A stretch of DNA of 60,564 nucleotides from an uncultured Acidimicrobiales bacterium (GTDB lineage: Bacteria; Actinomycetota; Acidimicrobiia; Acidimicrobiales; UBA10347), in assembly GCA_937941245.1 (NCBI GenBank), contig CALDYC010000065.1, forward strand, positions 1 through 60,564, in the 5' to 3' direction. A program made the translations under genes and the position numbers. Positions 8,238-54,340 of this stretch are shown here, in pieces. Position 1 is the first letter of the stretch. The number at the start of each line of letters is the position of its first letter. Below the pieces are notes generated by a model. It ran no database searches, had not been told where the DNA came from, and saw only the letters and a list, made by a program, of their open reading frames with translations.

Positions 8238-8241
8238 ACTC

Positions 8242-8931
8242 GTGACCCCATCCTCAGAGCACATGTCCGTGCCTGAACTTGAACGCCATACTGACCCGGT
8301 CGACGGCAGCGTCTGGCTACTCGACACCGAGTTCCTCGAATCGAACTGGACATGCATCTGGGGTCGCGGCTGCGAGGGCATGGGCGACACCGCCAGCCCT
8401 GAGCTGCAGCAGGGCTGCTGTTCAGCGGGCGCACAAATGCTCGACGAAGACGAGTCAATGCGGACCGCCGCGATCGGGCTCACGCTTGACCCCACGAGCT
8501 TCCAGTTCAGTAGCCAAGCCGTCAACGGCGGCATGTTCTCTGACGACACCCGCACCGCAACCCGCGTGGTTGACGGCGCATGCATTTTTCTCAACCGACC
8601 CGGGTTCGCAGGCGGGGCCGGATGTGCGCTGCATCTCGCTGCCGTCGCGGAAGGCGAAGACCCAATCGACTACAAGCCCGCGATCTGTTGGCAGCTCCCC
8701 CTGAAGGTCGAGAACAACCCAGACGGATCGCGCACCTTGCGCCGCTGGACCCGCACTGACTGGGGTTCCGGAGGAGCGGCGATGGCGTGGTGCTGCACCG
8801 AGACCGGTCACGCTGACGGACTCGCCTCGGCGTATGTCGGCGATGCACCAGTGGCCGAGTCCCTGAACAGCGAACTCATCGCTCTCGTTGGACCCGACAT
8901 AGCGGTCGCGATTCGAGACCGGCCGCGCTGA
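8242..8931 (+). CDS. Conserved cysteine-rich protein, function unknown
   Basis: A 229-residue protein with many cysteines in clusters: WTCIWGRGCEGMG, GCCSAGAQM, ACIFLNRPG followed by GCALHLAA, AICWQL and WCCTE. The arrangement recalls YkgJ-type proteins, in which conserved Cys bind zinc or an Fe-S cluster, but I cannot assign it firmly. There is no signal peptide, so it is probably cytoplasmic. It starts 4 bp after the EAL gene stop (GTG 8242; ATG 8263 is an alternative) and may be co-transcribed. It is followed by a histidine phosphatase gene with its own -10 box. Confidence 0.7.
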   Translation: MTPSSEHMSVPELERHTDPVDGSVWLLDTEFLESNWTCIWGRGCEGMGDTASPELQQGCCSAGAQMLDEDESMRTAAIGLTLDPTSFQFSSQAVNGGMFSDDTRTATRVVDGACIFLNRPGFAGGAGCALHLAAVAEGEDPIDYKPAICWQLPLKVENNPDGSRTLRRWTRTDWGSGGAAMAWCCTETGHADGLASAYVGDAPVAESLNSELIALVGPDIAVAIRDRPR

Positions 8932-8955
8932 CATCTGCAACTAGCCTTTGCGCTC

Positions 8956-9555
8956 GTGAAGATGATTGTGGTGCGCCACGCGCAACCAAACGACGAGTCC
9001 GCAACCGGTGGTCACGGTGATCCGCCGCTCAGCCCCCTTGGGCTGCGTCAAGCCGACGCTCTGTGCGAGTACCTGCAGGGCGAACCCATTGACAAGATCG
9101 TGGCGAGCCCTATGGTCCGAGCCCGCCAGACCGGTGAGCCGCTCGCAGCCCGTCTCAATATGGACATCGAGTTCGACGACGACCTCAAAGAAGCCGGCTG
9201 GGACGCCGGTGCCTACATGCGAACCGAAGAGAACCTGGCGTTCTTCATCGACAAGATGACCGAGGACCCGGATTTCCTCTATGCCCCCGAAGGCCGCCCA
9301 GCATTCCGAGAACGAGTCGTGCGTTCGTTCACCCGCATCGCCAACCAGAACTCAGGCAAGACCGTCGCAGTGTTCTGCCACGGCATGGTGACGGCAACGA
9401 TCACCGAGCACGCGATCGGCCACGAACTCGATGGCGGAGCACTTCACCCGAACTACACGAGCATCACCCGCGTGCAGGCATCGCCGTCGCGCGACCTGTG
9501 GACACTGACCAGCTTCAACGAACACATGCATCTGCGAGGCATCGCCAATGACTGA
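8956..9555 (+). CDS. Histidine phosphatase (phosphoglycerate-mutase-like)
   Basis: A 199-residue member of the histidine phosphatase superfamily. The catalytic RHA motif is at residues 7-9 (IVVRHAQPND), the second Arg of the phosphate pocket is in SPMVRARQTGEP, and the second His is in VFCHGMVTA. It hydrolyses a phosphate ester of unknown identity; the short family members include cobalamin-pathway, sugar and broad-specificity phosphatases. GTG 8956 is preceded by TAGCCT with an 8-nt gap. The stop overlaps the valS start by 8 bp, so the two are translationally coupled. Confidence 0.85.
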   Translation: MKMIVVRHAQPNDESATGGHGDPPLSPLGLRQADALCEYLQGEPIDKIVASPMVRARQTGEPLAARLNMDIEFDDDLKEAGWDAGAYMRTEENLAFFIDKMTEDPDFLYAPEGRPAFRERVVRSFTRIANQNSGKTVAVFCHGMVTATITEHAIGHELDGGALHPNYTSITRVQASPSRDLWTLTSFNEHMHLRGIAND

Positions 9556-12500
9556 ACCCGCAACCGCCACCGACGGCAGAGCCGAACTCGCCAAGGCCTA
9601 TGTTCCGGCCGAAGCCGAAGCCATCGTCACCCAACGATGGCAAGCCGCCAACGCGTCGCATGCTGAACCAGCAGCCCCTGGGACACCGACGTACTCGATT
9701 GTCATTCCGCCACCGAACGTCACCGCAGCACTGCACCTCGGCCACGCGCTCAACAACACGCTGCAGGACGTGCTCGTCCGCTATCACCGCATGCGCGGCC
9801 ACGCCACGTTGTGGATGCCCGGCACGGACCATGCGGGCATCGCAACCCAAACCGTTGTCGAGAAACGCCTTCTCAACGACGGGATCAAGCGGCTCGAGCT
9901 TGGACGCGACGCGTTCATCGACAAGACCCAAGAATGGAAAGACGAATACGAAGCGATCATCTTGAGCCAACTCAAGCAGATGGGTTTCTCATGCGACTGG
10001 GATCGCACCCGGTTCACCATGGACGAGATCTGCACCGTCGCAGTGCGCGAAGCGTTCTACCGACTGTTCGATGACGGTTTGATCTACCGCGGCAAGCGCT
10101 TGGTCAACTGGGACCCAGCGACTCGCACCGCCCTCTCTGATGACGAAGTCGAGATGGAGGAGATCGACGGCCACATGTGGTATCTGCGGTACCCCATCGA
10201 AGGCGGCCCGCTCGATGACGGCACCACCCACGTCACCGTGGCGACCACCCGTCCCGAAACCATGCTGGGCGACACCGCCGTCGCTCTCAACCCCGATGAC
10301 CCACGTGCCGAGGCGCTACGTGGTCGACGGGTCGTATTGCCAATCGTGAATCGTTCAATCCCGATCGTCGAAGACGATTACGTGGTGATGGCCGACCCCG
10401 ATAGCACCGAGGCCAAGGCCCAGTACGCAAGCGGGTTCCTCAAAGTCACACCGGCCCATGACCCCAATGATTGGGACATCGGCCAACGCCATGAACTGGC
10501 CGTTATCAACATCATGGGTCCCGACGGCTCCATCTCTGACCAGTACGGCTGGGACGACGTATCAGACCAGGCCCGGGCCTTTGTCGGCATGAGCCGTGAA
10601 GATGCCCGAACGGCAATCGTTGCCTGGTTCGACGACAACGACCTGCTCGAACAGGTCCGCAACTACACCCACTCGGTCGGTCACAGCTACCGAAGCCATG
10701 TGCCGATCGAACCGTGGCTCAGCGACCAGTGGTACGTCGCAGTAACCGACGACAAACTGCGCGGGTCCGCGCTGCGTGCGCAGAACGCCGAACAGCTTCC
10801 AGACATGCCCGATGGGGTCGGTGACCGCGGCCGCTCAGACGGCGACGGCAGCCTGACGTTCTACCCCGCTCGCTACGCCCGCACCTACGCGTCGTGGCAC
10901 GAGAATATTCGCGATTGGTGTATCAGCCGCCAGCTTTGGTGGGGCCACCAGATACCGGTGTGGTTGCGCATCGTCGACGAATCCGACGCATCGGCCGAGG
11001 TCATCGATGCACTCGAACGCGCGGGCATTGACCAAGCCGAACCTGTCCAGAGCGAATGGACCCGACGCGGCGCCGCCCACCATGCCCGGCGAGTGACCGC
11101 TACCGAAATCGAAGAGTCAATCTGCATCGGACCCGATGCCGCAGTTCGACGGAGCGACGCTCGGGATGCAACAACCGAAGCAGACCTTGTCGCCGCCGTC
11201 GAAGCGGCCGGTTACACCCGCGACCCTGACGTGCTGGACACGTGGTTCTCGTCTGCCCTCTGGCCGATGTCGACCATGGGCTGGCCGTGGTCGGAGGACT
11301 TTCCCGAAACCGAAGGTCTGCTCGAATCGTTCAACCCCACTTCGGTACTGACGACCGCCCGAGAAATCATCACACTCTGGGTCAGCCGAATGGTCATGTT
11401 CAACCGCTATTTCCTCGACGGCCAGCTGCCGTTCACCGACGTCTTCATCCACGCGATGATCCAAGACGGTCACGGTCAGAAGATGTCCAAAAGTCTGGGC
11501 AACGGCGTCGACCCGCGCGACATCATTCACAGCCACGGCGCCGACGCTCTGCGCTACAGCCTGGTACAGATGACCACCGACACGCAGGACGTTCGCATGC
11601 CGGTGAACATCGTGTGCCCACACACCGGCGACGTCTTCGAGCCCGAGTTCATTACCAACGCCAGCGGTTACACCGTGACTGCACCGGTGCAATCTTCGCC
11701 AAGTGATCCGTCGAAGAAAATGGTTTCGGCGTACGGCATCGCCACCGCCGAAGCTGCTGCGACCGATGACATGCCAGCGGCACGCAACACCTCCGCCAAA
11801 TTCGACCTCGGTCGCAACTTCGCCAACAAGGTGTGGAACGCGACCCGATTCGCACTCGGGCGTCTTGACGGAACGAGCGAAAGCACGGCCAACCGGGTCG
11901 TCAACGCGGCACAGGCATCGTTTGCAGACCGTTGGATCCTCGCCCGCCTGCAACAGACAGTGACCGAGATCGACTCGCTGATGGGGCGCTACCAGTTCAA
12001 CCAGATCGCCGAGACCCTGTACGACTTCATCTGGCGGGATGTGTCAGACCGATACCTCGAAGCGGTCAAGGCAACCATCGACACCGACGTCGACCAGCAG
12101 GTGGTCCTCGGCGCAGTGCTCGACGCTGTGCTGCGTTTACTGCATCCGGTCTGCCCGTTCGTGACCGAAACACTGTGGCCAAACGTCGCCGCTGTTCGCG
12201 GCGGTTCAGTCGCAGGGCTTGCGCTTCCGCCTTCTGAACTCGTTGCGCTCGCCGCATGGCCCGTCGCAGACGATTCGCTCGCCGACCCAGCCGTGATCGC
12301 TGACTTCGACCGCGCCGACGCACTTGCCGCGGCAATCCGCACGGTTCGCTCAGAGCAGCAGGTCAAACCCCGCCGAGAGATCACTATGCATGTTCCCCCA
12401 GCGGTCTCTGCCTTGATCGACACCGCCGGTGGCGTGGTTGAATCACTCGCCGGCATCGGCACCGTGGACGATGCCGAAGGCGCTCCCCCGGGCGCCAACA

Positions 12501-40304: not shown

Positions 40305-42221
40305 TCAGTCCGGGTCAACCACTTGTGGCTCGACAACGCGTGGGGTGACGAAAACGTCCAAGGCAGCAACAAACTGTCGCAGCACCAAATCGTCGCCAGA
40401 AGTGACAACCAGCTCGCCGGAATCGATCAGCTCATCAAGTCGCTCGGGTTCGTAGCCGATGGTGACAATGGCACGGTGGGTTGCGCTCACTGCAACATCG
40501 GCCTGCCCGACAACAGCCGGAGACGGATCAACCTGCTGATGAATCGCACCGTTCGAAACCCCGATGTAGTGAAGTTCACCGAGATCAGAGATCGTCAGCG
40601 CAATCGACGCCGGGCGAGTGAATCGTGCCGGAACAAACCGCACCCCGAGCATGTCGACGAGCTGCTCGCCGGTCATTGCATCGGCTTCGCCTGGGGCTCG
40701 CACCCGACCGAGGTTGTAGGACCCGTGACGTAGCTCATGCGCTCCGCTGAGATAGGCGTTTCGCCAGGTAGACGATTCGGCCTGGTAGCCGAGCTGTTCC
40801 ATCGCATCGGCCGACAGTGCGCGAGCCGCAGTGTTTTCTGCGTCGGCGAAGATGACATGATTCAGAACCTGCACCACCCAGCGGTAGTCGCCGTCGTTGA
40901 ACGCCCGCTGCGCGCCAGCGATCACCGCATCGGCGCCGCCCATCATTTCGAGGTATCGGTGAGCTGACTCGACCGGCGGGTGGCGGTGCAAGTTCGCCGG
41001 GTTGCCGTCATACCAACCGAGATAGCGGTCATACACCGACCGAACGTTGTGCGACACCGTTCCGTAATAGCCCTGCACATGCGAATGCCCCGACACGCTG
41101 GCCGGAAGCTCGATCCGTGCCGCGATGTCTTCGGGTGTGAATCCGTGGTTCGCCAAACGCAGCGTCTGGTCGTGGAGATATCGATAGACATCGCGCTGGA
41201 CCTCGAGAAATTGGCGCACGTCATCGGTGCCAAAGCGCGGCCAGTGGTGGCTCGCGAACATCGTGTCGGTGTGATCGCCCCACAGCAGCAGAGCTTCTTG
41301 GATGTACTTGCTCCACGCCATGGCATCGCGCACTTTGGCACCGCGCAACGGGTACAGGTTGTGCAACGTGTGGGTGCAGTTTTCCGCCATGCACAGCACC
41401 CGTTTATCGGGGAAGAAAAAGTTCATCTCGGCCGGAGCTTCGGCATCGGGCGTGTTCTGGAATACGACCCGGACCCCACCAATGTCGAGTTCGGCACCGG
41501 TCTCATTGATCGTCTCGGTCGGGGCGATCAGACTGCGGTGACCAATCGGCATCGAGATTCCGAGGCCAGTGTTGACCCGGTGCTGCGGACCGTGGGGCAA
41601 CAACACACCAAACTGATGCAACGCCCGACGCATCATGATTGGGCCGGCGGTCCCGTTCTCGCTGACCGCCTCTTCGAGGAAACCTTCCGGTGCGATGATT
41701 CGGACGTCGCCCGCAGCCACTGCGTCGGCGGTGGTCACGCCGAGCACTCCTCCGTAGTGGTCGACGTGGCTGTGGGTATAGATCACCGCATGGACCGGCC
41801 GTTCACCGAGCGTCTGATTTGCGAGCGCAAGACACGCTTCGGCGGTCGGCGTTGTCGTGAGCGGATCGATGATCAGCCAGCCTTCAGCTGTGTCGATGAA
41901 GGTGATGTTCGAAATGTCATAGCCGCGCGCCTGCCAGACGCCGTCGGCAACCTCAAACAGTCCATGGATGGCTGTCAGCTGACTCTGACGCCACAACCCC
42001 GGGTGCACCGTGTCCGGTGCGTCAGCTCCGATCAGATAGTCATGTTTGGTGCCGTCCCACGCCACCCCATGATCTCGACCGATCACGTTGGTCGGATGCT
42101 GTGCGATCAACCCCTGCCGTGCCGCCGCAAAGTCCCGGTCATCGTCAAAGTCCACGACCACGGCCGAGTTCCGCGCTCGGGTATCGGCGGTCGCTGTGTG
42201 TGGGCCGGCGGCATCTGACAT
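40305..42221 (-). CDS. Alkyl sulfatase-like metallo-beta-lactamase
   Basis: A 638-residue protein of the SdsA1/BDS1 group. The metal site THSHVDHYGG is at residues 149-158, with further ligands expected in AENCTHTLHNLYPLRGAKVRD and SHHWPRFG. The middle part is helical, the dimerisation domain of alkyl sulfatases, and the end is SCP2-like (IALTISDLGELHYIGVSNGAIHQ). Such enzymes cleave primary alkyl sulfates with inversion. No signal peptide is visible, unlike SdsA1, so the enzyme appears cytoplasmic and the ester would have to be imported. ATG 42221 has GAGGAGAG upstream. Confidence 0.9.
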   Translation of the reverse strand: MSDAAGPHTATADTRARNSAVVVDFDDDRDFAAARQGLIAQHPTNVIGRDHGVAWDGTKHDYLIGADAPDTVHPGLWRQSQLTAIHGLFEVADGVWQARGYDISNITFIDTAEGWLIIDPLTTTPTAEACLALANQTLGERPVHAVIYTHSHVDHYGGVLGVTTADAVAAGDVRIIAPEGFLEEAVSENGTAGPIMMRRALHQFGVLLPHGPQHRVNTGLGISMPIGHRSLIAPTETINETGAELDIGGVRVVFQNTPDAEAPAEMNFFFPDKRVLCMAENCTHTLHNLYPLRGAKVRDAMAWSKYIQEALLLWGDHTDTMFASHHWPRFGTDDVRQFLEVQRDVYRYLHDQTLRLANHGFTPEDIAARIELPASVSGHSHVQGYYGTVSHNVRSVYDRYLGWYDGNPANLHRHPPVESAHRYLEMMGGADAVIAGAQRAFNDGDYRWVVQVLNHVIFADAENTAARALSADAMEQLGYQAESSTWRNAYLSGAHELRHGSYNLGRVRAPGEADAMTGEQLVDMLGVRFVPARFTRPASIALTISDLGELHYIGVSNGAIHQQVDPSPAVVGQADVAVSATHRAIVTIGYEPERLDELIDSGELVVTSGDDLVLRQFVAALDVFVTPRVVEPQVVDPD

Positions 42222-42290
42222 CGGGGCACTCTCCTCAAACCTGGTCTGAGGGGACCTTATGTTGCACCGCAAGAGTTCTACTCGGTCGGG

Positions 42291-42438: not shown

Positions 42439-43551
42439 ATGCCGGAAATCACCTTCGGTTCGCGGATCCGCAAGTCGCCGTACTTCGACGCGACGATTGC
42501 CGCGGGCGCGTCAGCGTTCACGATCTATAACAAGATGTACATGCCGACGGCATATGGCGACCCAGCAGCTGAATACGCTCGCCTGACACAGACCGTTGCC
42601 ATCTGGGATGTCGCCGCTGAACGTCAGGTTGAGATTGTTGGTCCCGACGCAGCTGCTCTCACTCAATACCTGTCAGCACGCGACCTCACGACATTGAAAG
42701 TCGGCCGGGCTCGCTACGCGCCCATCTGCGACCATCACGGCAGGCTGATCAACGACCCAGTCGTTCTTCGGGTTGACGATCATCGATTCTGGCTATCGAT
42801 CGCGGATAGCGATCTGTTGCTGTGGGCTCGTGCCGTTGCCGGTGAGCGCGGATTTGACGCCATCGTCGACGAGCCTGACGTGTCGCCGCTCGCCATTCAG
42901 GGTCCACGCGCTGACGACCTCGCTTCGGACCTTTTCGGGGCCGCGTTGGTGTCGAGTCTGGGCTTCTTCCACCACGTTCCGGTAACGCTCGATGGCATTG
43001 CGATCGTGCTGTGCCGCTCCGGGTGGAGCAAGCAGGGTGGGTTCGAGCTGTTTCTCACCGACTCGACTCGCGGCCAGGACCTGTGGCATGCCGTGGTCGC
43101 AGCCGGCGAACGCTACGGCATCGGGCCGGGAAGTCCGAACCACACCGAACGCATCGAGAGCGGCCTGCTTAGCTTCGGTTCAGACCACGACCGTTCAACC
43201 GATCCTTTCGAAGCCGGTCTTGGCCAATACGTATCACTCGACGTGAGTCACGACTTCATCGGCAAGCAAGCATTGCTCGCGTGTGACCCCTCGCGAAGAC
43301 GACCAATCGTGAACGTTCGGTTGAGCAGCGATCCGCTGTATCAAGGCCATCCGCAACCCGCAATCGTTGACGGAAGCGTTGTTGGGCAGGTGCAGACCTG
43401 CACCTGGTCGCCGCGGCTCGATGCATGGATCGGCCTGGCGCAGTTGTCGGCGCCCCATTGCGTTCCCGGCTCAACGATCGACGTCCAGACCCAGGCGGGA
43501 TGGGTTACTGCAACGGTTCAACCCGACCCCTTCGGCGCGATCCAGCAGTGA
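42439..43551 (+). CDS. DMSP demethylase (DmdA)-like, GcvT-fold THF-dependent methyltransferase
   Basis: A 370-residue protein of the GcvT/aminomethyltransferase family, the length of characterised DmdA. Segments FTIYNKMYMPTAYGD, VAIWDVAAERQVEIVGPDAAALTQYLSARDL and LINDPVVLRVDDHRFWLSIADSDLLLWAR are strikingly like DmdA from marine bacteria. DmdA moves a methyl group from dimethylsulfoniopropionate to tetrahydrofolate; related proteins act on other methylated substrates, so specificity is not certain. The start at ATG 42439 removes a low-similarity upstream extension. Upstream are a promoter, operator and attenuator-like leader; downstream is a coupled group of unusual genes and then folD and the corrinoid operon, all consistent with methyl-THF formation. 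Confidence 0.78.
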   Translation: MPEITFGSRIRKSPYFDATIAAGASAFTIYNKMYMPTAYGDPAAEYARLTQTVAIWDVAAERQVEIVGPDAAALTQYLSARDLTTLKVGRARYAPICDHHGRLINDPVVLRVDDHRFWLSIADSDLLLWARAVAGERGFDAIVDEPDVSPLAIQGPRADDLASDLFGAALVSSLGFFHHVPVTLDGIAIVLCRSGWSKQGGFELFLTDSTRGQDLWHAVVAAGERYGIGPGSPNHTERIESGLLSFGSDHDRSTDPFEAGLGQYVSLDVSHDFIGKQALLACDPSRRRPIVNVRLSSDPLYQGHPQPAIVDGSVVGQVQTCTWSPRLDAWIGLAQLSAPHCVPGSTIDVQTQAGWVTATVQPDPFGAIQQ

Positions 43552-43582: not shown

Positions 43583-43603
43583 GTGAGCTGTCACCTGACA
43601 TGA
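43583..43603 (+). CDS. Possible six-codon leaderless leader peptide
   Basis: TACTGT (43571-43576) stands 6 nt before GTG 43583, the leaderless spacing used by many genes here. The frame reads V/M-S-C-H-L-T and stops at TGA 43601-43603, which overlaps the ATG of the next gene (ATGA at 43600). Translation of the mini-frame could be coupled to the 577-residue protein. It could also be chance; no product is known. Confidence 0.3.
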   Translation: MSCHLT

Positions 43604-45333
43604 AGACGATCGGCCTCGACCCGGCGACCCTGCTTGAACGTGAGCTTGCCGATCGTCGCGGTCGACTTCGTAGCGCTGATCACGTGATGTCGCCGCCGGT
43701 CGTCGGCGCAGCTCGGCTGACCCGATACAGCTTCAATCGCATGATGCTGCGTCGAGCCTCGACAGACGGCTGGACCGTTGTCCGAAGCCGATTCGATATC
43801 GACGAGCATGGAGCCGGCGAAGCCGTCTATGAATGGCACCTCGATGACCAGGTGTATTCCTTCGTCGCCTTCACCGAGACCCTGGACGAATCTGCACACA
43901 CCGACCGGGTGGTGGCGGATCGGTGGGAGATCACCGCCGTTCTGGTCGATGGACCCGTCGATGCCGCGTTGCTCGGCTCGCTTCGGCATGAGGTTCCACT
44001 GCAAGAAGGCGGTCGGTTCGACGCTCGGGTCCTCACCCTGACCAGAGGTAACCGCAGCGTTCGCTTCTTTGACTACCTGGTCGAAACGCTCGCCTCCGGC
44101 GCGCAACCCGATCCGGAACTGGTCGCCGACGCCGGCTACATCATGCGAAGCACCGCGTTTTACGGCAACGGCAAATTCGGCATGCGGTCGTTCGGCGGCT
44201 ACGACGACACCGACCCAATGGGCGTGCCGTACCGGGCCCAGTTCGCCGCCGCGTTTTTGTTCCGCGAGCTGAGCTACGACGTCGTCGAGCATTGCGCCGC
44301 CCTACGAGGCGGCGCCGGGGCTGTTCGCTTCGATGACGAATGGCGCCGGTTCTTCGGACTTGGAAATGCGACTGGGCTAGGTCTGGTGTTCTATGCATTC
44401 AAACACCCGCGCATCATGCATGCCTGGGCGTCGGTTCGCGAGATCGCGCTCGCTGATGTTCGAGCCCTCGAAAACGACCTCGCGCTCAGCACCCAGCTCG
44501 AATGGTGGATCGACCGGGCCCAAACGCACTTCGCCACAGCCGGAGACGACGATTGTGCGCCGTTCGCATCGCCCTCAGGCATTGCTGCGCGTTGCGGCAG
44601 GGTACGCGCGGCGTGGCGCGAACTGCGAACCCATCCGACCCCATTTGACGAACTCTGGCGATGGTCGAATACCCAAGATCCCGAAACCGAGGAGCTCGTC
44701 GTCTCACTACTGATCGAACTCCACGATGGCGACGATGCCGTGGTCGATCAGCTACTTCGGGTCAGCGAATCGGCCAATCCCGATCTTTCGATGTCAGCGA
44801 GCGAAGCACAGGCACTGCTCAACGAACGGTTCGGCTGGGTGTCGTCCACGAGCACCAACCGCAGTCAGTCCGCGGACCAGATGTTCTGGTGGGTCATCAG
44901 CGACAACACCGACGAACCTCGGCGAGTGCGGCGCGGGGCCCTCGAGCCGAACGGCCGAGACGTGACCATCGATGTTGCTGGTCGTATGCAAGCCCTCGCC
45001 CATGCTCTCGAACTCGCCGCCCCTGACGAGACGGTCGGCGACGTCGTCGCGCGCAACCCGGAACTGCTCTTTGCGGTGCATCGCCTCGCGGTCAGCGACC
45101 AGAGGTACGGCGAGTTTCACGACGATGCCTGCGCGGCTGGCTACCTGCCATTGCAGGTCCAACGTTTCCAGCTGGCGTTCTACGGCATGGATAACTTCAA
45201 ACCCAAATCAACTGACTGGCTGCGGGTCACCCTTTTTCAGGGAGCCCCACGAGCCGAAGATCTCGCCAACGGGTGCAACGACGACTGGGTGCTTCCGCCC
45301 CGACCAACAACGCGAGCCGGAGAGCCAGCATGA
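43600..45333 (+). CDS. Uncharacterised 577-residue protein in one-carbon cluster
   Basis: I do not recognise this protein. No signal peptide, membrane segment, P-loop, Rossmann glycine motif or Cys cluster is visible. It is rich in Trp, Arg and acidic residues, with a mixed N-terminal part to about residue 150, a patch MRSTAFYGNGKFGMRSFGGYDDTDPMGVPYRAQF near 183-216 that looks like a ligand site, and a largely helical second half. Its stop overlaps the start of the dipeptidase-like gene (ATGA), so they are translationally coupled and probably interact or act in one pathway. It follows the DmdA-like gene by 48 bp. Confidence 0.75.
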   Translation: MKTIGLDPATLLERELADRRGRLRSADHVMSPPVVGAARLTRYSFNRMMLRRASTDGWTVVRSRFDIDEHGAGEAVYEWHLDDQVYSFVAFTETLDESAHTDRVVADRWEITAVLVDGPVDAALLGSLRHEVPLQEGGRFDARVLTLTRGNRSVRFFDYLVETLASGAQPDPELVADAGYIMRSTAFYGNGKFGMRSFGGYDDTDPMGVPYRAQFAAAFLFRELSYDVVEHCAALRGGAGAVRFDDEWRRFFGLGNATGLGLVFYAFKHPRIMHAWASVREIALADVRALENDLALSTQLEWWIDRAQTHFATAGDDDCAPFASPSGIAARCGRVRAAWRELRTHPTPFDELWRWSNTQDPETEELVVSLLIELHDGDDAVVDQLLRVSESANPDLSMSASEAQALLNERFGWVSSTSTNRSQSADQMFWWVISDNTDEPRRVRRGALEPNGRDVTIDVAGRMQALAHALELAAPDETVGDVVARNPELLFAVHRLAVSDQRYGEFHDDACAAGYLPLQVQRFQLAFYGMDNFKPKSTDWLRVTLFQGAPRAEDLANGCNDDWVLPPRPTTRAGEPA

Positions 45334-46280
45334 TTATCGACGGACTGCAGATCAACAATTGGACACGCGACGTCGCGATCGAAGCAGCATCGGGCGGCGT
45401 GAACGTGGTACACGCGACCGTTGGCGTGTGGGAAGACCTTGCTGGTGCGATGACCCGCATCGGCGCGTTTCGGCATTTCTGTCGGCACAACAGTGACGTC
45501 ATCCGCATTGTCACGACCGTCGACGACATGCGCCGAGCGACCAATGATGGAGTACTCGGCGTCGTCCTCGGCTTCCAAAATGCGACCATGCTCGGCGACG
45601 ATCCCGAGATGGCTCAACTATTCGCCGACGTCGGCATGCGCGTCATCCAACTCACCTACAACATCGCAAATCATCTCGGATCGAGTTGCTGGGAACCAAC
45701 CGATGGCGGGCTCACCCGGGCTGGACATCGCATGGTGGCAGCGTTGAACGAAGCCGGAGTCCTTGTCGACATCAGCCACGTCGGCAACATCACGGGCCGT
45801 CAGGCTGTCGATGCCAGCGCCAAACCCATCGCTGTCACCCACGGCAACCCGTACTGGTTTTGCGAATCCAATCGGAACAAACCCGACGAGGTACTCGACG
45901 CGGTTGCAAGCCGCGGAGGCGTGATTGGTTGCACGATGTACCCGCTCTTTATGGGCGGCGCCGACGTCACCCGGTCGCAGTACTGCGCCATGCTGGCCAG
46001 GCTGGCTGACCAGGTCGGCATCGATCACGTCGCCATCGGCACCGACGCCGTGCTGGGTTGGGACCCCGACGCACTCGGCTGGATGCGCAGCGGGCGCTGG
46101 GACCGCCCGGTCGACCCGGCCCAGGTTCCGGAGTTTCCGCCGTGGCCTACATGGTTTGACGGGCCAAAGGACTTTCCGTCGCTACGCGAGGGACTTGATC
46201 AAGCTGGCTTCAGTCCGCAAGATCGCGACAAAGTGCTCGGAGGCAACTGGGAACGAATCTTCACCGAGGTCTTCGTGTGA
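45330..46280 (+). CDS. Divergent M19 (renal dipeptidase-like) protein lacking half of the metal site
   Basis: A 316-residue TIM-barrel protein of the M19 membrane-dipeptidase family. It keeps the second-site histidines in DISHVGNI (His150) and AVTHGNPYWFCESNRNKPDE (His171), and the family IGTD near the end. The N-terminal HxD is absent (IIDGLQINNW) and the bridging Glu is replaced (LGFQNATML, Gln83), so the dinuclear zinc centre cannot form normally. It is unlikely to be an ordinary dipeptidase. From memory, M19-like genes occur beside dimethylglycine-demethylation genes in Pseudomonas, which suits this one-carbon setting. GTGA joins it to the next small gene. Confidence 0.85.
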   Translation: MIIDGLQINNWTRDVAIEAASGGVNVVHATVGVWEDLAGAMTRIGAFRHFCRHNSDVIRIVTTVDDMRRATNDGVLGVVLGFQNATMLGDDPEMAQLFADVGMRVIQLTYNIANHLGSSCWEPTDGGLTRAGHRMVAALNEAGVLVDISHVGNITGRQAVDASAKPIAVTHGNPYWFCESNRNKPDEVLDAVASRGGVIGCTMYPLFMGGADVTRSQYCAMLARLADQVGIDHVAIGTDAVLGWDPDALGWMRSGRWDRPVDPAQVPEFPPWPTWFDGPKDFPSLREGLDQAGFSPQDRDKVLGGNWERIFTEVFV

Positions 46281-46618
46281 ACCAAGTCGTTGTTGCACCA
46301 CGAGAACTCGTAGATCTGGTGTATCGATGCAATCGACTCGCTGGCGTCGACCCCGGACATGCCGCCCTGTGGGCTCAAACGATCGTCGAACACACTGCCA
46401 CAGCTATCGAAACCCTCACCGCAGCGGTTGACCAGATCGTTGCGGGCGAACCGGCGCGGCCCGATGCCGACGCATGCTTTGATCGCGCCGCCTGGGCGAC
46501 GGCTGAGCGCGACGGGCTACCAATTCCAGTGCCGACGTTCGATGCTCTCAATCGACACGCCAGTGCCTTTCTCGTCGCCGAACACGTACTGGACCACGCC
46601 GACGTTCCAACCACGTAA
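46277..46618 (+). CDS. Small hypothetical protein at the end of the DmdA-like gene group
   Basis: A 113-residue acidic, Ala-rich, helical protein. The first part (LVDLVYRCNRLAGVDPGHAALWAQTIVEHT) recalls DUF3726-type proteins found in some bacterial methyl-compound clusters, but the resemblance is weak and not relied on. GTG 46277 overlaps the dipeptidase-like stop (GTGA), so it is translated with it. No function is assigned. An 11-bp repeat follows the stop. Confidence 0.65.
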   Translation: MNQVVVAPRELVDLVYRCNRLAGVDPGHAALWAQTIVEHTATAIETLTAAVDQIVAGEPARPDADACFDRAAWATAERDGLPIPVPTFDALNRHASAFLVAEHVLDHADVPTT

Positions 46619-48111: not shown

Positions 48112-48175
48112 CACCAGAGCTTTGGTGTCATGTGGCGGTCAAAACACAGATCACAAGCCCGGGGGTACTGGCGAC

Positions 48176-48892
48176 ATGAGTGACACACCAGCCAACGATC
48201 AACCCGAAGAAGACGAGGAAATCATCCTCGCCGACCTCAACGACGAAGATCTCACCGCACAGATGCACGATGACCTGTACGACGGTCTCGCAGACGAAAT
48301 CGCCGAAGGCACCAACCTGCTCTTGAGCCGCGGATGGGCAGCTGACAAGGTCCTCAACGATGCGCTGGTCGAAGGCATGCGCATTGTTGGCATCGACTTT
48401 CGCGACGGCATTTTGTTCGTTCCCGAGGTATTGCTTGCCGCCAATGCCATGAAAGCCGGCATGGCGATCTTGCGTCCCCTGCTGGCCGAGACCGGCGTCG
48501 AACCCATTGGCAAGATCGTCATCGGCACGGTCAAAGGCGACATTCACGACATCGGCAAAAACCTGGTTGCCATGATGATGGAAGGCGCCGGATTTGAAGT
48601 CGTCGACGTCAGTGTTAATGCCGAGGTCGACGAATACCTTGCCGCACTCGAAGAACACAAGCCCGACATCCTCGGCATGTCCGCATTGCTCACCACGACC
48701 ATGCCGTACATGAAGGTCGTCATCGACACCATGGCCGAAAGGGGCCTACGCGATGATTACATCATCCTCGTCGGAGGAGCCCCGCTGAACCAAGAGTTCG
48801 GCGACGCCATCGGCGCAAACGGCTACTGCCGAGACGCCGCGATCGCTGCGGAAATGGCAACCGCAATGGTTGCCGCCAAACGCGCCGCCTGA
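48176..48892 (+). CDS. Corrinoid protein (MttC/MtbC-type B12-binding methyl carrier)
   Basis: A 238-residue cobalamin-binding methyl carrier. The N-terminal helical cap (LYDGLADEIAEGTNLLLSRGWAADKVLNDALVEGMRIVG) precedes a Rossmann-like B12 domain with GTVKGDIHDIGKNLVAMMMEGAGFEVVD, whose His124 in DxHxxG is the lower cobalt ligand. It shuttles methyl between the MttB-like enzyme and the methyl-THF enzyme downstream. The start is taken at ATG 48176 (MSDTPANDQ) after a G-rich ribosome site; the frame opens further upstream. It is the first gene of a six-gene operon and shares one base with the next start (TGATG). Confidence 0.95.
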   Translation: MSDTPANDQPEEDEEIILADLNDEDLTAQMHDDLYDGLADEIAEGTNLLLSRGWAADKVLNDALVEGMRIVGIDFRDGILFVPEVLLAANAMKAGMAILRPLLAETGVEPIGKIVIGTVKGDIHDIGKNLVAMMMEGAGFEVVDVSVNAEVDEYLAALEEHKPDILGMSALLTTTMPYMKVVIDTMAERGLRDDYIILVGGAPLNQEFGDAIGANGYCRDAAIAAEMATAMVAAKRAA

Positions 48893-49515
48893 TGACAGCG
48901 GTTCCACACGCTCGCACGCTGGTGCTTGCCTGTGGCGCGCTCGCCGGAGAGATCACCGCAATCCGCAAGGCATACCATCTCGATCACCTCGAACTTGACT
49001 GCTTGCCAGCCAAGCTCCACCTACGCCCAGAACTGATCGCCGATGCGCTACGAGACCGTCTTCGGGATCGGCGCGGCGAATTCGAACGAGTCCTGATCGG
49101 CTACGCCGACTGTGGCACCGCTGGCGAAATCGATGACGTGTGCGCAGAATTCGACGCCGATCGGATTGACGGTGCGCACTGCTATCAGTTCTTCGCTGGA
49201 ATCGAACGATTCGATCAAATCCATGCCAGCGATCCGACCATCTTTTGGCTAACCGACTTCCTCGCCCGACATTTCGACCTCTTCGTCATCAATGCCCTTG
49301 GCATTGCCGACCATCCCGAACTCGCCGAGTTGTATTTCGGCAACTACACCCGGCTCATCTACTTGGCGCAGACCGACGACGCCGACCTGGATCTGCGGGC
49401 CCAAGCTGCGGCCGAGCGACTCGGGCTGCGGTACGAGCGCATGTACACCGGTTTCGGCGACCTTGAGCCAGCGCTCGTTGGCGCGGTTCCCGTTTCGATT
49501 GCGAGTCCGCCATGA
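48892..49515 (+). CDS. DUF1638-family protein
   Basis: A 207-residue cytoplasmic protein with the DUF1638 pattern: TLVLACGALAGEITAI, LDCLPAKLHLRPELIADALRDRL and ERVLIGYADCGTAGEIDDVC ... HCYQFFAGIERF. Conserved Cys and His in these motifs could bind a metal or corrinoid. DUF1638 genes commonly lie in MttB-type methyltransferase clusters, but a biochemical role has not been settled as far as I know. It is coupled by overlaps to the corrinoid gene before it and the small gene after it. Confidence 0.9.
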   Translation: MTAVPHARTLVLACGALAGEITAIRKAYHLDHLELDCLPAKLHLRPELIADALRDRLRDRRGEFERVLIGYADCGTAGEIDDVCAEFDADRIDGAHCYQFFAGIERFDQIHASDPTIFWLTDFLARHFDLFVINALGIADHPELAELYFGNYTRLIYLAQTDDADLDLRAQAAAERLGLRYERMYTGFGDLEPALVGAVPVSIASPP

Positions 49516-49901
49516 GCGAACTACCAGCTCAGCCACGCCGAAGCAGCGGGCGACGACGGTCTGGCAAAGATGAGCTCGTCACCATCTACTGGCGAGACAT
49601 CCCAGCTCAGGTCAAGGCCTCTGTCGATGGTGAAACCGGATCTTGGCTGCTCGAAGAGCGATTTCAGGTGGCCATTGATCGTGCCGCTGGCGTCGCTGGT
49701 CTAACTAACGCGGACGACTACGTCCTCGAATGGCGACGTTCGACCCAACCGTGCAGCGGCAACCCACAGGTCGCGGCACAAACCGAAGCCGAACGGCTGC
49801 AACACGAATACGACAGTGAACGGGTGCGTGCACTCGTTAACAACGGCGGATGTGACGCCGTTAACTCTGAGAACGAACCGCCACCAGCGGGAAATGAATA
49901 G
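49512..49901 (+). CDS. Virulence_fact (PF13769-like) domain protein
   Basis: A 129-residue protein. After a basic Arg/Ser-rich N-terminus (residues 7-19) comes LVTIYWRDIPAQVKASVDGE and FQVAIDRAAGVAGLTNADDYVLEWRRS, the core of the domain misleadingly called 'virulence factor'. To my knowledge it recurs beside DUF1638 and methyl-THF:corrinoid methyltransferase genes in alphaproteobacteria, so an auxiliary role in corrinoid methyl transfer is more likely than virulence. The start overlaps the DUF1638 stop (ATGA). Confidence 0.82.
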   Translation: MSELPAQPRRSSGRRRSGKDELVTIYWRDIPAQVKASVDGETGSWLLEERFQVAIDRAAGVAGLTNADDYVLEWRRSTQPCSGNPQVAAQTEAERLQHEYDSERVRALVNNGGCDAVNSENEPPPAGNE

Positions 49902-49910
49902 GAATCAGCC

Positions 49911-50813
49911 ATGACCGAGACCGTCATCAGCTCAGCCACCAAGGAAGTCGTCATCGGCTTCGACCGACCGTTCGTCATGATCGGCGAGCGGATCAATCCA
50001 ACCGGGCGCAAACTTCTCGCAGCAGAGATGAAAGAAGGCGACTTCAGCCGGGTCGAGGCCGACGCGATCGCCCAGGTTGCGGCAGGCGCTCACATGCTCG
50101 ACGTCAATGCGGGTATTCCTCTCGCCGACGAACCAGCGCTACTCGCTCAGGCGATCAAACTGGTCCAGTCAGTTACCGACGTTCCCCTCGCCATTGACTC
50201 GTCAATCGTCGAAGCGCTCGAAGCCGGCATCGAGGCCTATGAAGGCAAGCCGCTGATCAACTCGGTCACCGGCGAGGACGAACAGATGGAACGGGTGCTG
50301 CCACTGGTCGCACGCGCCGGCGCTGCCGTGGTCGCAATCAGTAACGATGAGACCGGTATCAGCGAGGACCCAGACGTGCGCTTTGAGGTCGCACGCAAGA
50401 TCGTCAACCGCGCCGCCGACCACGGCATTCTCCCCTGCGACATCGTCGTCGACCCACTCGTCATGCCAATCGGCGCGATGGGAACCGCCGGCAAACAAGT
50501 CTTCCGGTTGGTCGGACGCCTCCGAGACGAACTCGGCGTGAACACCACCTGCGGTGCATCCAACGTCAGCTTCGGCCTACCGAACCGCCACAACATCACG
50601 GGCACCTTCCTGTCGATGGCGGTCGGTGCTGGCATGACCAGTGCAATCATGAACCCGTTGCATGCCGAGGTAAAAGCCGCCGTCATGGCTGCCGACGTCC
50701 TCGCTGGCAACGACGAAAACTGCGCGGCGTGGATTCGCGAGTTCCGTGACCCCGAAGCCGGGGGCGGCGCAGGTGGCGCTCGACGGCGAGCCGGTGGCCG
50801 CCGTCGTCGCTGA
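49911..50813 (+). CDS. Methyltetrahydrofolate:corrinoid methyltransferase (pterin-binding)
   Basis: A 300-residue TIM-barrel protein of the pterin-binding family (AcsE/MtgA/MtvA-type). Motifs: MIGERINPTGRKLLAAEM, GAHMLDVNAGIP (Asp-Asn pterin site), PLAIDSSIVEALEAG, INSVTGEDEQ, DIVVDPLVMPIG and TTCGASNVSFGLPNR. It would move methyl from the corrinoid protein to tetrahydrofolate, or the reverse. The last 20 residues form a Gly/Arg-rich tail (GGGAGGARRRAGGRRRR) that is outside the barrel. ATAGGAAT precedes the start. A separate -10 box lies between it and the next gene. Confidence 0.93.
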   Translation: MTETVISSATKEVVIGFDRPFVMIGERINPTGRKLLAAEMKEGDFSRVEADAIAQVAAGAHMLDVNAGIPLADEPALLAQAIKLVQSVTDVPLAIDSSIVEALEAGIEAYEGKPLINSVTGEDEQMERVLPLVARAGAAVVAISNDETGISEDPDVRFEVARKIVNRAADHGILPCDIVVDPLVMPIGAMGTAGKQVFRLVGRLRDELGVNTTCGASNVSFGLPNRHNITGTFLSMAVGAGMTSAIMNPLHAEVKAAVMAADVLAGNDENCAAWIREFRDPEAGGGAGGARRRAGGRRRR

Positions 50814-50837
50814 ACCCGCCTACCTAAGCTCAAAACC

Positions 50838-52790
50838 GTGCCTATCCCTGTGACCAGCCCGCAGCACCGAGTCGTGTTCACGCCTTCGGGGTTGAGCGGA
50901 AGCGTGCCCGAGGGCACGACCGTCCTGCAAGCAGCAGCCGAGCTCGGCGCCGACCTTGACACGGTCTGCGGCGGCCGCGGGATCTGTGGCCGGTGTCAGG
51001 TCAAACCAAGCATTGGCAGCTTTGCGAAATGGGCGGTCGACGTCGACGAGCAGGCGTTGTCACCCTGGGGAACGCTCGAAGCCAACTACACCGGCCGGCG
51101 CGCTATCACCGACGGTCGCCGTCTCGGATGCTCGGCGACGATCTGTGGCGATGTGGTCATCGACATTCCACCCGAGAGTCAGATCCACAAGCAAGTCATT
51201 CGCAAGTCGGTCGACGTCGGAGACCTCAGAATCGACCCGATTCACACCTTGCATTACATCCACGACGGGCCGGTACGCGCCGCGCTGTTTGACGACTGGG
51301 GGGTTGCGGCCAATGATTCGACTGACGACCTCGGCAGCGGCCCACGCACAGTTGCAGTCCGCAACGGCAACCAGATCGTTGCCAGCTGGGACGGCTATGT
51401 CGATCGGGTGACCGGTATCGCCATCGACGTCGGCTCGACAACCATCGCCGGCCACTTGATCGACCTTTCGACAGGCGACGTTCTCGCAACCGCAGGGCGA
51501 ATGAATCCGCAGATTCGCTTTGGCGAAGACCTCATGAGTCGCGTGAGCTACGTGATGATGAACCCCGGCGGCGACGCTGAGTTAACTGCCGCTGTACGAA
51601 CGGCGCTGCAAGAGCTCACCGGTGAGCTTGTCAACGAAGCTGCCTTTCCCGTTGACCGAGTTCTCGATGTCACGCTGGTTGGCAATCCGATCATGCACCA
51701 TCTTGTGCTTGGCTATGACCCGACGCCTCTCGGACAATCGCCGTTTCCGTTAGCAGTCGAAGGTGCGGTCTCGACGACGGCCGCCGCGATCGAGCTTGAG
51801 CTTCCCAACGCTTCGGTCTACGTCGCTCCGTGCATCGCCGGCCATGTCGGAGCTGACACCGCCGCCGCGATTCTTAACGAGGGCCCGCACCGAAGCTCCG
51901 CCATTCAGCTTCTCGTTGATGTTGGCACAAACGCCGAAATCGTGCTCGGCAATGACCAACAGCTCTTTGCCTGTTCCAGCCCAACCGGCCCGGCATTCGA
52001 AGGAGCCCAGATCAGCTCCGGTCAACGAGCAACAGCTGGCGCTATCGAACGGGTGCAGATTGACCGGACCACCCTTGAGCCCCGCTTCACGGTAATCGGG
52101 AGCGAGCTGTGGTCAGACGAACCCGGCTTCGCCGAAGCAACCCAATCGACCGGGATCACCGGTATTTGTGGATCCGGGATCATCGAAGCGATCAGCGAGT
52201 TGGTCAGCACCGGCATCATCGACCAGGCAGGCGTCATACGCGGCGAGCTGGCATCGACCACTACCAGAATCGTTGCCGATCACCGGACGTTTGACTACAT
52301 CCTCGCGGCCGGCATCGCAGCCGACGGGACCGACGAGATCCGGGTCACTCAGGCTGACGTACGAGCAATTCAGCTCGCCAAGGCGGCGCTCAAAGCCGGC
52401 ATTGACCTGCTGCTCGAACACGCCGAACTAACCACCGTCGACGAGATCCGTCTGGCAGGAGCGTTCGGAGCCCATATCGACCCAGCCCATGCCATGGTCG
52501 TCGGCTTGATCCCGGAGATCGACGTGACCAACGTTCGTGCCGTCGGCAACGCGGCCGGAAGCGGCGCCGTCCGCACCCTGCTTTCAGGCGAGCAGCGGCG
52601 CGAAATAGAAGACGTCGTGCGCGACGTCATCAAGATCGAGACGGCGATCGAGCCTCGCTTTCAGGAGCACTTCGTCACCGCCCTCGCATTCCCCCGATCG
52701 ACCGCCCCGACCACGGGCACCAGCAGCAGTACCGGCGGCCGTCGCAGACGATCCCGCACAGCCACGAGCACCTCCAGGAGTCCCTCATGA
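50838..52790 (+). CDS. RamA-like reductive activator of corrinoid proteins (2Fe-2S + ASKHA, DUF4445)
   Basis: A 650-residue protein. The N-terminal ferredoxin domain binds a plant-type [2Fe-2S] cluster through Cys44, Cys50, Cys53 and Cys98 (DTVCGGRGICGRCQV and RRLGCSA). The C-terminal DUF4445 part is an ASKHA-type ATPase: GIAIDVGSTTIAGHLID, LLVDVGTNAEIVLG and TGICGSGIIEAISELV. Such proteins use ATP to drive reduction of inactive Co(II) corrinoid to Co(I). The tail after about residue 625 is Ser/Thr/Arg/Gly-rich. GTG 50838 is placed by TAAGCT ending 7 nt upstream, an internal promoter. Its stop overlaps the MttB-like start (ATGA). Confidence 0.93.
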   Translation: MPIPVTSPQHRVVFTPSGLSGSVPEGTTVLQAAAELGADLDTVCGGRGICGRCQVKPSIGSFAKWAVDVDEQALSPWGTLEANYTGRRAITDGRRLGCSATICGDVVIDIPPESQIHKQVIRKSVDVGDLRIDPIHTLHYIHDGPVRAALFDDWGVAANDSTDDLGSGPRTVAVRNGNQIVASWDGYVDRVTGIAIDVGSTTIAGHLIDLSTGDVLATAGRMNPQIRFGEDLMSRVSYVMMNPGGDAELTAAVRTALQELTGELVNEAAFPVDRVLDVTLVGNPIMHHLVLGYDPTPLGQSPFPLAVEGAVSTTAAAIELELPNASVYVAPCIAGHVGADTAAAILNEGPHRSSAIQLLVDVGTNAEIVLGNDQQLFACSSPTGPAFEGAQISSGQRATAGAIERVQIDRTTLEPRFTVIGSELWSDEPGFAEATQSTGITGICGSGIIEAISELVSTGIIDQAGVIRGELASTTTRIVADHRTFDYILAAGIAADGTDEIRVTQADVRAIQLAKAALKAGIDLLLEHAELTTVDEIRLAGAFGAHIDPAHAMVVGLIPEIDVTNVRAVGNAAGSGAVRTLLSGEQRREIEDVVRDVIKIETAIEPRFQEHFVTALAFPRSTAPTTGTSSSTGGRRRRSRTATSTSRSPS

Positions 52791-54340
52791 CCGATGCAGA
52801 AACACCAAGCCCACGCCGTCGCCGCGGTGGTGGGGGCCGAGCCGCGCGGCAGGCCGCACGTGCCGGCAACAACGCCGAAGTGCAGGCCTGGCTCGAACGT
52901 CGGCTTCCCCCCGTCGACATGATCGACGATGAGGCGTATGCCACGATCGAAGCGAACGCCGACATCATTCTCGAAGAGATCGGTATCGCATTTCAGGACT
53001 TCCCCGAAGCCCTGCAGATCTGGAAGAACGCTGGCGCTGACGTCCGCGGCGACATGGTCCACTTCCCCAAGGGCATGTGTCGCCAGATCGTCCAGGACAA
53101 CGCGCCGAAGATTTTCACCCAACATGCTCGCAACGCTGACCGAAGCGTGCAGATCGGCGGAAACGCCACCGTATTCGCACCGAACTATGGGTCACCATTC
53201 GCAATGGACCTCGACAATGGTCGGCGTTACGCGACGCTCAACGACTTCGAGAACATCGTGAAGCTCGTGTATCAACTTCCCCATCTGCATCATTCAGGTG
53301 GCACGGTCTGCGAGCCGGTGGACGTTCCGGTGAACAAGCGGCATCTCGACATGGTGTATTCACACATCAAGTACAGCGACAAGCCATATATGGGATCGGT
53401 CACCGCTGCAGAGCGCGCCGTCGACTCGATTGAGCTGAGCCGAATCGCATTCGGCGGCGACCTCGCTGACCGCACCGTGATGACATCGCTCATCAATGCT
53501 TCGTCGCCGCTGCGCTGGGACGGGACCATGCTCGGCGCCGCAACCGCGTACGCCAAAGAGAACCAGGCCGCGATCTTGTCGCCATTCATTCTCGCTGGAG
53601 CCATGTCTCCGGTAACGGTGGCGGGTTTGGCCGCTCAGTCTCTGGCCGAGGCCCTCTCGGGGATGGCGTACTACCAGCTGGTCCGGCCTGGGGCTCCGGT
53701 CATCTTCGGCACCTTCGCTAGCTCGATGTCGATGGCGACCGGAGCTCCGACGTTCGGCACCCCCGAGGCAGGTCAAGCAATTCACGTGATGGCCGGGTTG
53801 GCGAGGCGGGTCGGCGTTCCGTTCCGCTCGGGCGGCCAGTTCACCTCATCGAAGTACCCCGACGCCCAAGCGGCCTACGAGTCAGCCCACAGCCTCATGC
53901 CGACCGTCCAGGCTGGAGTGAACTTTGTTCTGCATGCCGCTGGTTGGCAAGAGGGCGGCCTGTCGATCGGCTACGAGAAACTCATCCTCGATGCCGACCA
54001 GCTGGGAGCGATGACCGTGTACGGCCAGGGTGTTGACATGTCCGACAATGGCCAGGCCATGGAAGCGTTCCACACCAACGACCACGGTCAGCACTTTCTC
54101 GGCAACGGACACACCCTGAAGAACTTCGAATCTGCGTTCTGGCGGTCTGAAATGTCGAACAACGACAGCTTCGAGCAGTGGGAGGAAGAAGGCTCACTGA
54201 CCTCAGCCAACCGGGCAAACGCTCGATGGAAGCAGTTGCTCACCGAGTACCAGGCACCCGAGCTCGACGCCGCGATCGACGCCGAGCTCACGGACTTCAT
54301 CGCTCGCCGAAAGTCCGAAATGCCCGACGCCTCGTACTAG
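52787..54340 (+). CDS. MttB-family (trimethylamine methyltransferase-like) corrinoid methyltransferase, non-pyrrolysine
   Basis: A 517-residue member of the MttB superfamily: a basic Arg/Gly-rich N-terminus (residues 9-27), then LPPVDMIDDEAYATIEANADIILEEIGI, IFTQHARNADRSVQIGG, APNYGSPFAMDLDNGRRYATLNDFENIVKL, and LSPFILAGAMSPVTVAGLAAQSLAEALSG. The frame has no internal TAG, so it belongs to the non-Pyl branch that includes glycine betaine methyltransferases (MtgB and the Roseobacter glycine betaine transmethylase). It should transfer a methyl from a quaternary amine, such as glycine betaine, to the corrinoid protein. The substrate is inferred, not shown. It is the last gene of the operon. Confidence 0.93.
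   Translation: MTDAETPSPRRRRGGGGRAARQAARAGNNAEVQAWLERRLPPVDMIDDEAYATIEANADIILEEIGIAFQDFPEALQIWKNAGADVRGDMVHFPKGMCRQIVQDNAPKIFTQHARNADRSVQIGGNATVFAPNYGSPFAMDLDNGRRYATLNDFENIVKLVYQLPHLHHSGGTVCEPVDVPVNKRHLDMVYSHIKYSDKPYMGSVTAAERAVDSIELSRIAFGGDLADRTVMTSLINASSPLRWDGTMLGAATAYAKENQAAILSPFILAGAMSPVTVAGLAAQSLAEALSGMAYYQLVRPGAPVIFGTFASSMSMATGAPTFGTPEAGQAIHVMAGLARRVGVPFRSGGQFTSSKYPDAQAAYESAHSLMPTVQAGVNFVLHAAGWQEGGLSIGYEKLILDADQLGAMTVYGQGVDMSDNGQAMEAFHTNDHGQHFLGNGHTLKNFESAFWRSEMSNNDSFEQWEEEGSLTSANRANARWKQLLTEYQAPELDAAIDAELTDFIARRKSEMPDASY

Follow-up and report, generated by a model that had tools for sequence, protein, structure and literature searches.

A protein family without a recognizable domain, translationally coupled to an M19-like gene in an Acidimicrobiales genome, is probably part of a catabolic operon for an N-methylated betaine-like osmolyte

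The window analyzed here is the whole stretch of 60,564 nucleotides of contig CALDYC010000065.1 (GenBank assembly GCA_937941245.1), from an uncultured Acidimicrobiales bacterium, and it contains a gene for a 577-residue protein, X577, followed by genes for an M19-like and a DUF3726-like protein (Table 1). The TGA stop codon of X577 (45331 to 45333) overlaps the ATG start codon of the M19-like gene (45330) in the letters ATGA at 45330 to 45333, which bears out the translational coupling to a dipeptidase-like gene that the original prediction, made from the letters of the window, had claimed. We found full-length X577 homologues with 50 to 58% identity and no internal stops in six genomes of the order, and a divergent version with 29 to 41% identity in two genomes of the same genus. 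Since the full-length homologues in these six genomes lack internal stops, we conclude that X577 is a real gene, and the original observation of it is correct, well beyond chance.

Table 1. Positions of the genes and gene groups discussed in the text, in the window and in other loci.
Feature	Location	Positions	Strand	Details
X577	Window	43600-45333	+	577 aa, no known domain; ORF and translation, homologues, AlphaFold2 model
M19-like partner (PF01244)	Window	45330-46280	+	4-nt overlap with X577; Pfam 223.7 bits
DUF3726-like third gene	Window	46277-46618	+	113 aa, GTGA overlap with M19-like gene; tblastn, alignment, weak genome match
DmdA-like GcvT-fold gene	Window	42439-43551	+	48 nt upstream of X577, same strand; not a conserved neighbor
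Alkyl-sulfatase-type metallo-beta-lactamase gene	Window	40305-42230	-	Divergent from the DmdA-like gene
Corrinoid demethylation cluster	Window	48122-54340	+	Several domains of unknown function
DddP-like M24 gene	L115 (G000:C33:1-12000)	10126-11439	+	NCBIfam 445 bits, cut-off 600
DmdA-like gene	G005:C356	3571-4692		Same genus as the window
Ldh_2 orthologue	G005:C356	8325-9293		Within 4 kb of the DmdA-like gene
X577-DUF3726 fusion	L078, Poseidonibacter ostreae	7973-10381	+	Single protein of 802 aa
Ldh_2 gene	L011	4359-5369	-	Weak DUF3726 match at the N terminus
Luciferase-like monooxygenase, AA_synth (PF06684), and alpha/beta hydrolase genes	L011	4359-8018	-	Beside the X577 operon; similar in L013 and L029

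X577 had also been described as a protein without a recognizable domain, and it gave no match at E < 1 in either Pfam or NCBIfam. A profile built from 66 relatives matched nothing among PDB sequences, and when the same relatives were scanned singly against Pfam there were just isolated weak matches of single members, none above the curated cut-off. With 8 sequences as input, AlphaFold2 gave a mediocre model (pLDDT 74) whose structure search came back empty; the model from the 66-sequence alignment is confident (pLDDT 92.8, pTM 0.93). With this better model, Foldseek returned no PDB match at E < 0.001, and its top rows belong to the fumarase/aspartase superfamily but have E values of 0.34 (the best) or worse and a TM of about 0.1. 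The best VIA-align result, with phage Mu Mom (Z 5.5, 152 residues at 5.4 Å), is not significant; residues 57 to 223 align with the helix-grip (START/SRPBCC) structures 3put, 3otl, and 3q64 at Z values of 3.9 to 4.9 (96 to 98 residues, 4.1 to 4.3 Å), which lie below the level of kinship, and nothing significant was found among viral models. As calibrated, these structure searches neither prove a new fold nor name a known one. The sensitive profile search and predicted-structure comparison, both of which had been suggested as checks, thus place X577 in no characterized family, and the absence of structural matches recommends it for studies of structure and mechanism.

An alignment of 66 diverse relatives contains 47 invariant positions, which are rich in Arg, Trp, Tyr, and Gly and include no Cys or His, and no cofactor or metal pattern was seen. 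Conservation is concentrated in five blocks, at approximately residues 149 to 155, 180 to 194, 253 to 261, 431 to 441, and 537 to 550. The patch at residues 183 to 216 that had been put forward as a candidate active or binding site stands in its first part, where R183, A186, Y188, G191, K192, and G194 are invariant in the 66 relatives, but residues 195 to 216 vary, and what stands is one of the five blocks.

The Pfam match of the M19-like partner spans its whole length, and like membrane dipeptidase family M19 it keeps H150, H171, and D239 across 76 copies. Unlike that family, it has Leu at the His position of the HxD motif and Gln in place of the bridging Glu, each in at least 93% of the 76 copies, so that half of the metal ligands of the two-metal site are gone; the ligands are named here as is usual for the family. 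The closest solved relative, 2i5g, which is labeled an "amidohydrolase," has the same ligand changes. The protein matches M19 in Pfam but lacks both HxD and the bridging Glu, and the label "dipeptidase" should not be used for it. These losses bear on the idea that X577 has a nonenzymatic role, serving the M19-like partner or the Ldh_2-type partner described below as a scaffold, maturation factor, or activator, since a protein deprived of half its metal ligands might need such help, X577 has no cofactor or metal pattern of its own, and its coupling to its partners is constant. However, the 47 invariant positions, held over five phyla and in several blocks, resemble a catalytic or ligand site, and we consider a nonenzymatic role unlikely.

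The third gene, the DUF3726-like partner, was missing from the original prediction. Its product in the window gave no match to Pfam PF12525 and measures 113 residues versus approximately 180 in relatives, with the middle missing, so this copy may be decaying or minimal. By profile comparison, the partner of approximately 180 residues in Acidimicrobiia is a distant relative of DUF3726 (E values of 4e-7 to 5e-6), and Pfam confirmed DUF3726 in sampled partners of X577. In Poseidonibacter ostreae, X577 and DUF3726 are fused into a single protein. DUF3726 is not mentioned in any of the papers searched. The N terminus of the Ldh_2 protein in L011 has a weak DUF3726 match (E 0.026, below the cut-off), and the profile comparison is also weak, hinting at a resemblance between DUF3726 and the N-terminal region of Ldh_2.

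Beyond the window, X577 lies in an operon with genes for a LysR regulator, an aldehyde dehydrogenase, the M19-like protein, a BCCT or betaine ABC transporter, the DUF3726-like protein, and Ldh_2, and sometimes with an added operon resembling sarcosine oxidase (Sox) or N-methylglutamate dehydrogenase (Mgd). The full layout is seen in annotated plasmid regions of Aminobacter, Shinella, and Pararhizobium, where the order is LysR, aldehyde dehydrogenase, "membrane dipeptidase," X577, DUF3726, Ldh family oxidoreductase, and glycine-betaine-type ABC transporter. A BCCT transporter replaces the ABC type in Phaeobacter, and in Pseudomonas sp. MPC6, X577-DUF3726 is arranged divergently to the genes for the aldehyde dehydrogenase and the dipeptidase. 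For the operon's aldehyde dehydrogenase, the nearest models are 2-ketoglutaric-semialdehyde dehydrogenases, matched below the cut-off. The neighborhood counts describe a sample of the best-scoring loci: an M19-like gene was found in 81 of the 86 best-scoring loci and in 55 of the 58 well-flanked ones among them (8 kb or more on each side). The gene after X577 starts no more than 60 nucleotides from its stop codon in 82 of 84 loci (median offset, -4 nucleotides); in these 82 loci it overlaps or abuts X577 in 68, and it is of the DUF3726-like type in 57 and M19-like in 25.

The original prediction had read the coupling as a sign of an obligate partner, and the near constancy of the M19-like neighbor agrees with a lasting partnership. 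In addition, nine of 59 order genomes carry X577, and these nine are also the ones with the M19-like gene. A further suggested check was whether homologues always lie beside M19-like and GcvT-like genes; the former is nearly always the case and the latter (as DmdA-like genes) seldom, and the homologues share a conserved setting rather than being scattered over unrelated contexts. A Sox/Mgd-like operon adjoins the X577 operon in L028, L091, L101, and L104, although annotation cannot separate Mgd from sarcosine oxidase, and a SoxA-type match, in some cases weak, is near X577 in 5 of the 58 well-flanked loci. In L101 and L104, from Shinella and Phaeobacter, the Sox/Mgd-like genes, an AraC-type or helix-turn-helix regulator, and the X577 operon lie side by side. 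Rieske-type and other demethylase genes are found near X577 in Pseudomonas and Phaeobacter. The luciferase-like monooxygenase, AA_synth, and hydrolase genes that flank the operon in L011, L013, and L029, all from Acidimicrobiia, were considered as part of the core and rejected, because a luciferase-like neighbor was found in just 4 of the 58 well-flanked loci.

Relatives of X577 were confirmed at no fewer than 576 loci in species genomes, the best 80 of which come from five phyla (Actinomycetota, Pseudomonadota, Bacillota, Campylobacterota, and Chloroflexota), and 168 plasmid records also contain one. This widespread family is annotated just as "hypothetical protein." In a tree of 92 proteins, 22 Acidimicrobiia rows, the window X577 among them, form a supported clade, and its sister group contains other actinobacteria, Rhodococcus and Arthrobacter for example. 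Some Acidimicrobiia copies, including that of a genome of the same genus (G005, L017), fall among alphaproteobacterial sequences, a placement consistent with horizontal transfer.

In the genome from which the window comes, which is 71.5% complete, the pathway genes are split: X577, the M19-like gene, and the shortened DUF3726-like gene are in the window, and a single Ldh_2 gene is on contig C33, adjoined by a LysR gene and a Sox/Mgd-like operon. This Ldh_2 is 72% identical to the one beside X577 in L011, and the Mgd/Sox-like subunits show 82% and 75% identity to their counterparts next to X577 in L028. No close operon-type aldehyde dehydrogenase was found in this genome (best identity, 37%), and none lies near the window X577. 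Among the 59 order genomes, an Ldh_2 orthologue (at least 54% identity) is present in eight, all of which carry X577, and an Mgd/Sox-like beta subunit (at least 81%) is present in eight, six of which are X577 carriers. The uncorrected probabilities of overlap are approximately 8e-11 for X577 with the M19-like gene and 4e-9 for X577 with Ldh_2; they ignore kinship and are indicative only. A DddP-like M24 gene follows the Mgd/Sox-like operon on C33, and relatives of it (approximately 40% identity) lie just upstream of the M19-like gene in the gammaproteobacterial loci L062, L080, and L090.

The original prediction had placed X577 in a one-carbon cluster next to a DmdA-like gene, a framing that did not survive comparison: among the loci examined, such a gene is directly beside X577 only in the window and loosely near it in two gammaproteobacterial loci, and the setting that recurs around X577 is an operon for the catabolism of a betaine-type osmolyte. 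Against the NCBIfam DMSP demethylase model the gene scores 365.7 bits, short of the equivalog cut-off of 410, so it is DmdA-like only. One could propose that X577 works with this enzyme in DMSP-type demethylation or one-carbon supply, given that the gene is co-directional and 48 nucleotides upstream, that ten of the 59 order genomes have DmdA-like genes, namely, all nine X577 carriers and one other, and that a DddP-like gene adjoins both the X577 operon of three gammaproteobacterial loci and the Mgd-like operon on C33. However, in the other eight carriers the DmdA-like gene and X577 are on separate contigs, and the co-occurrence may reflect a shared marine, osmolyte-rich lifestyle; we regard this proposal as very improbable. 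We considered a DmdA-X577 functional unit and rejected it: the two genes co-occur, but they are not consistently adjacent. Another loose DmdA link is seen in a genome of the same genus, where a DmdA-like gene and the Ldh_2 orthologue share contig G005:C356. Elsewhere in the window, a row of genes encodes a corrinoid protein, DUF1638, a PF13769 "virulence factor," a pterin-binding methyltransferase, a 650-residue ferredoxin/ASKHA-like protein, and an MttB-family methyltransferase, and an alkyl-sulfatase-type metallo-beta-lactamase gene diverges from the DmdA-like gene (Table 1).

As the sequences show, the translationally coupled core consists of X577, the DUF3726-like protein, and the metal-depleted M19-like protein, and it travels with betaine-type uptake (BCCT or ProVWX), an aldehyde dehydrogenase, an Ldh_2-type reductase, LysR, and, in some lineages, a Mgd/Sox-like complex. 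The transporter types, together with the aldehyde dehydrogenase, Ldh_2, and the Mgd-like complex, suggest that an N-methylated betaine is broken down as far as an N-methyl amino acid. We therefore propose that X577 is probably an enzyme component dedicated to an operon for catabolism of an N-methylated betaine-like osmolyte, with homarine (N-methylpicolinate) or a near relative of it as the likeliest substrate. Between homarine, with seven carbons, and N-methylglutamate, with six, one carbon must be lost, and this count fits a sequence of ring opening, one-carbon removal, semialdehyde oxidation, and imine reduction. X577 and DUF3726 would act as one two-part enzyme that, with the M19-like protein, opens and trims the N-methylated ring; the aldehyde dehydrogenase would then oxidize a C5 semialdehyde, Ldh_2 would reduce an N-methyl imine to N-methylglutamate, and Mgd would demethylate this product to glutamate and a folate-bound one-carbon unit. 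In this scheme, we infer that ring opening and hydrolysis fall to the remaining components, X577, DUF3726, and the M19-like protein. More tentatively, X577 and DUF3726 could be a new type of enzyme with a fold absent from the PDB and no recognizable cofactor site, its reaction being the opening of an N-methylpyridinium ring, and the M19-like protein could be a repurposed, metal-depleted hydrolase; we think it somewhat doubtful that all of this holds. Speaking against homarine, Mgd/Sox-like genes are near X577 in few loci, and the window copy has no nearby aldehyde dehydrogenase and a shortened DUF3726-like partner.

The core triad might instead degrade another N-methylated or quaternary osmolyte, such as trigonelline or some other cyclic or pyridinium betaine, or its substrate might vary from clade to clade, with homarine at most one among several. 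The transporters do vary, with BCCT, betaine ABC, and, in Sinorhizobium and Bosea, a third ABC type, and demethylase genes, including the Rieske type, are near X577 in Pseudomonas and Phaeobacter. A long-branch version of the triad in Ensifer, Bosea, and Sinorhizobium meliloti pSymB (L112, L113, and L114) has an IclR regulator and the other ABC transporter type, and in Ensifer and Sinorhizobium it also has an aminotransferase and RidA proteins (two in the Sinorhizobium pSymB type, which sits on a very long branch). Since regulator, transporter, aminotransferase, and RidA proteins differ there, the substrate may differ between clades, and this version probably serves another one. On the other hand, four lineages and the genome that contains the window show a link between the operon and Mgd/Sox-like genes, and Mgd serves homarine catabolism according to a 2026 report, as it is cited in PMC13390433. 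For the operon as a whole, another osmolyte is a possible but rather unlikely substrate, and our preferred reading is the homarine-type one. In either case, X577, DUF3726, and a group of wrongly named "dipeptidases" gain a testable role from their placement in this operon.

The known systems closest to this operon differ from it in various ways. A dimethylglycine cluster of Pseudomonas and Vibrio, pepD-hypothetical-dgcAB (PMC12093977), likewise has a "dipeptidase" gene beside betaine-pathway N-demethylation genes, but X577, DUF3726, and Ldh_2 are not described there. The trigonelline (tgn) pathway of Acinetobacter breaks down an N-methylpyridinium carboxylate with a semialdehyde dehydrogenase, as we propose here, but it uses a flavin reductase and a luciferase-like monooxygenase, a type of gene that is rare near X577. 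As for the dgcAB cluster, we take the "hypothetical protein" beside pepD to be different from X577. The published homarine operon is said to have five structural genes plus a regulator and reportedly occurs in Rhodobacterales and SAR116; LysR with aldehyde dehydrogenase, M19-like protein, X577, DUF3726, and Ldh_2 gives the same number, six, which we use as a lead. The pathway of the X577 operon is probably the one described in 2026. According to PMC13390433, an AraC-type regulator adjoins mgdABCD, and Mgd has a role in homarine catabolism, for which it cites the 2026 work on the bacterial homarine pathway (Ferrer-Gonzalez et al. 2026, Nat Microbiol 11:1531, doi 10.1038/s41564-026-02313-7). The Acidimicrobiia differ in their gene order (X577, M19-like, DUF3726-like), and the genome analyzed here differs in having its genes split over two contigs, a shortened DUF3726-like gene, and no operon-type aldehyde dehydrogenase that we could find. 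The involvement of Mgd would be a point of likeness, Mgd/Sox-like genes being linked to the X577 operon in some lineages, and the placement of X577 in this operon would extend a likely homarine-type pathway to Acidimicrobiia.
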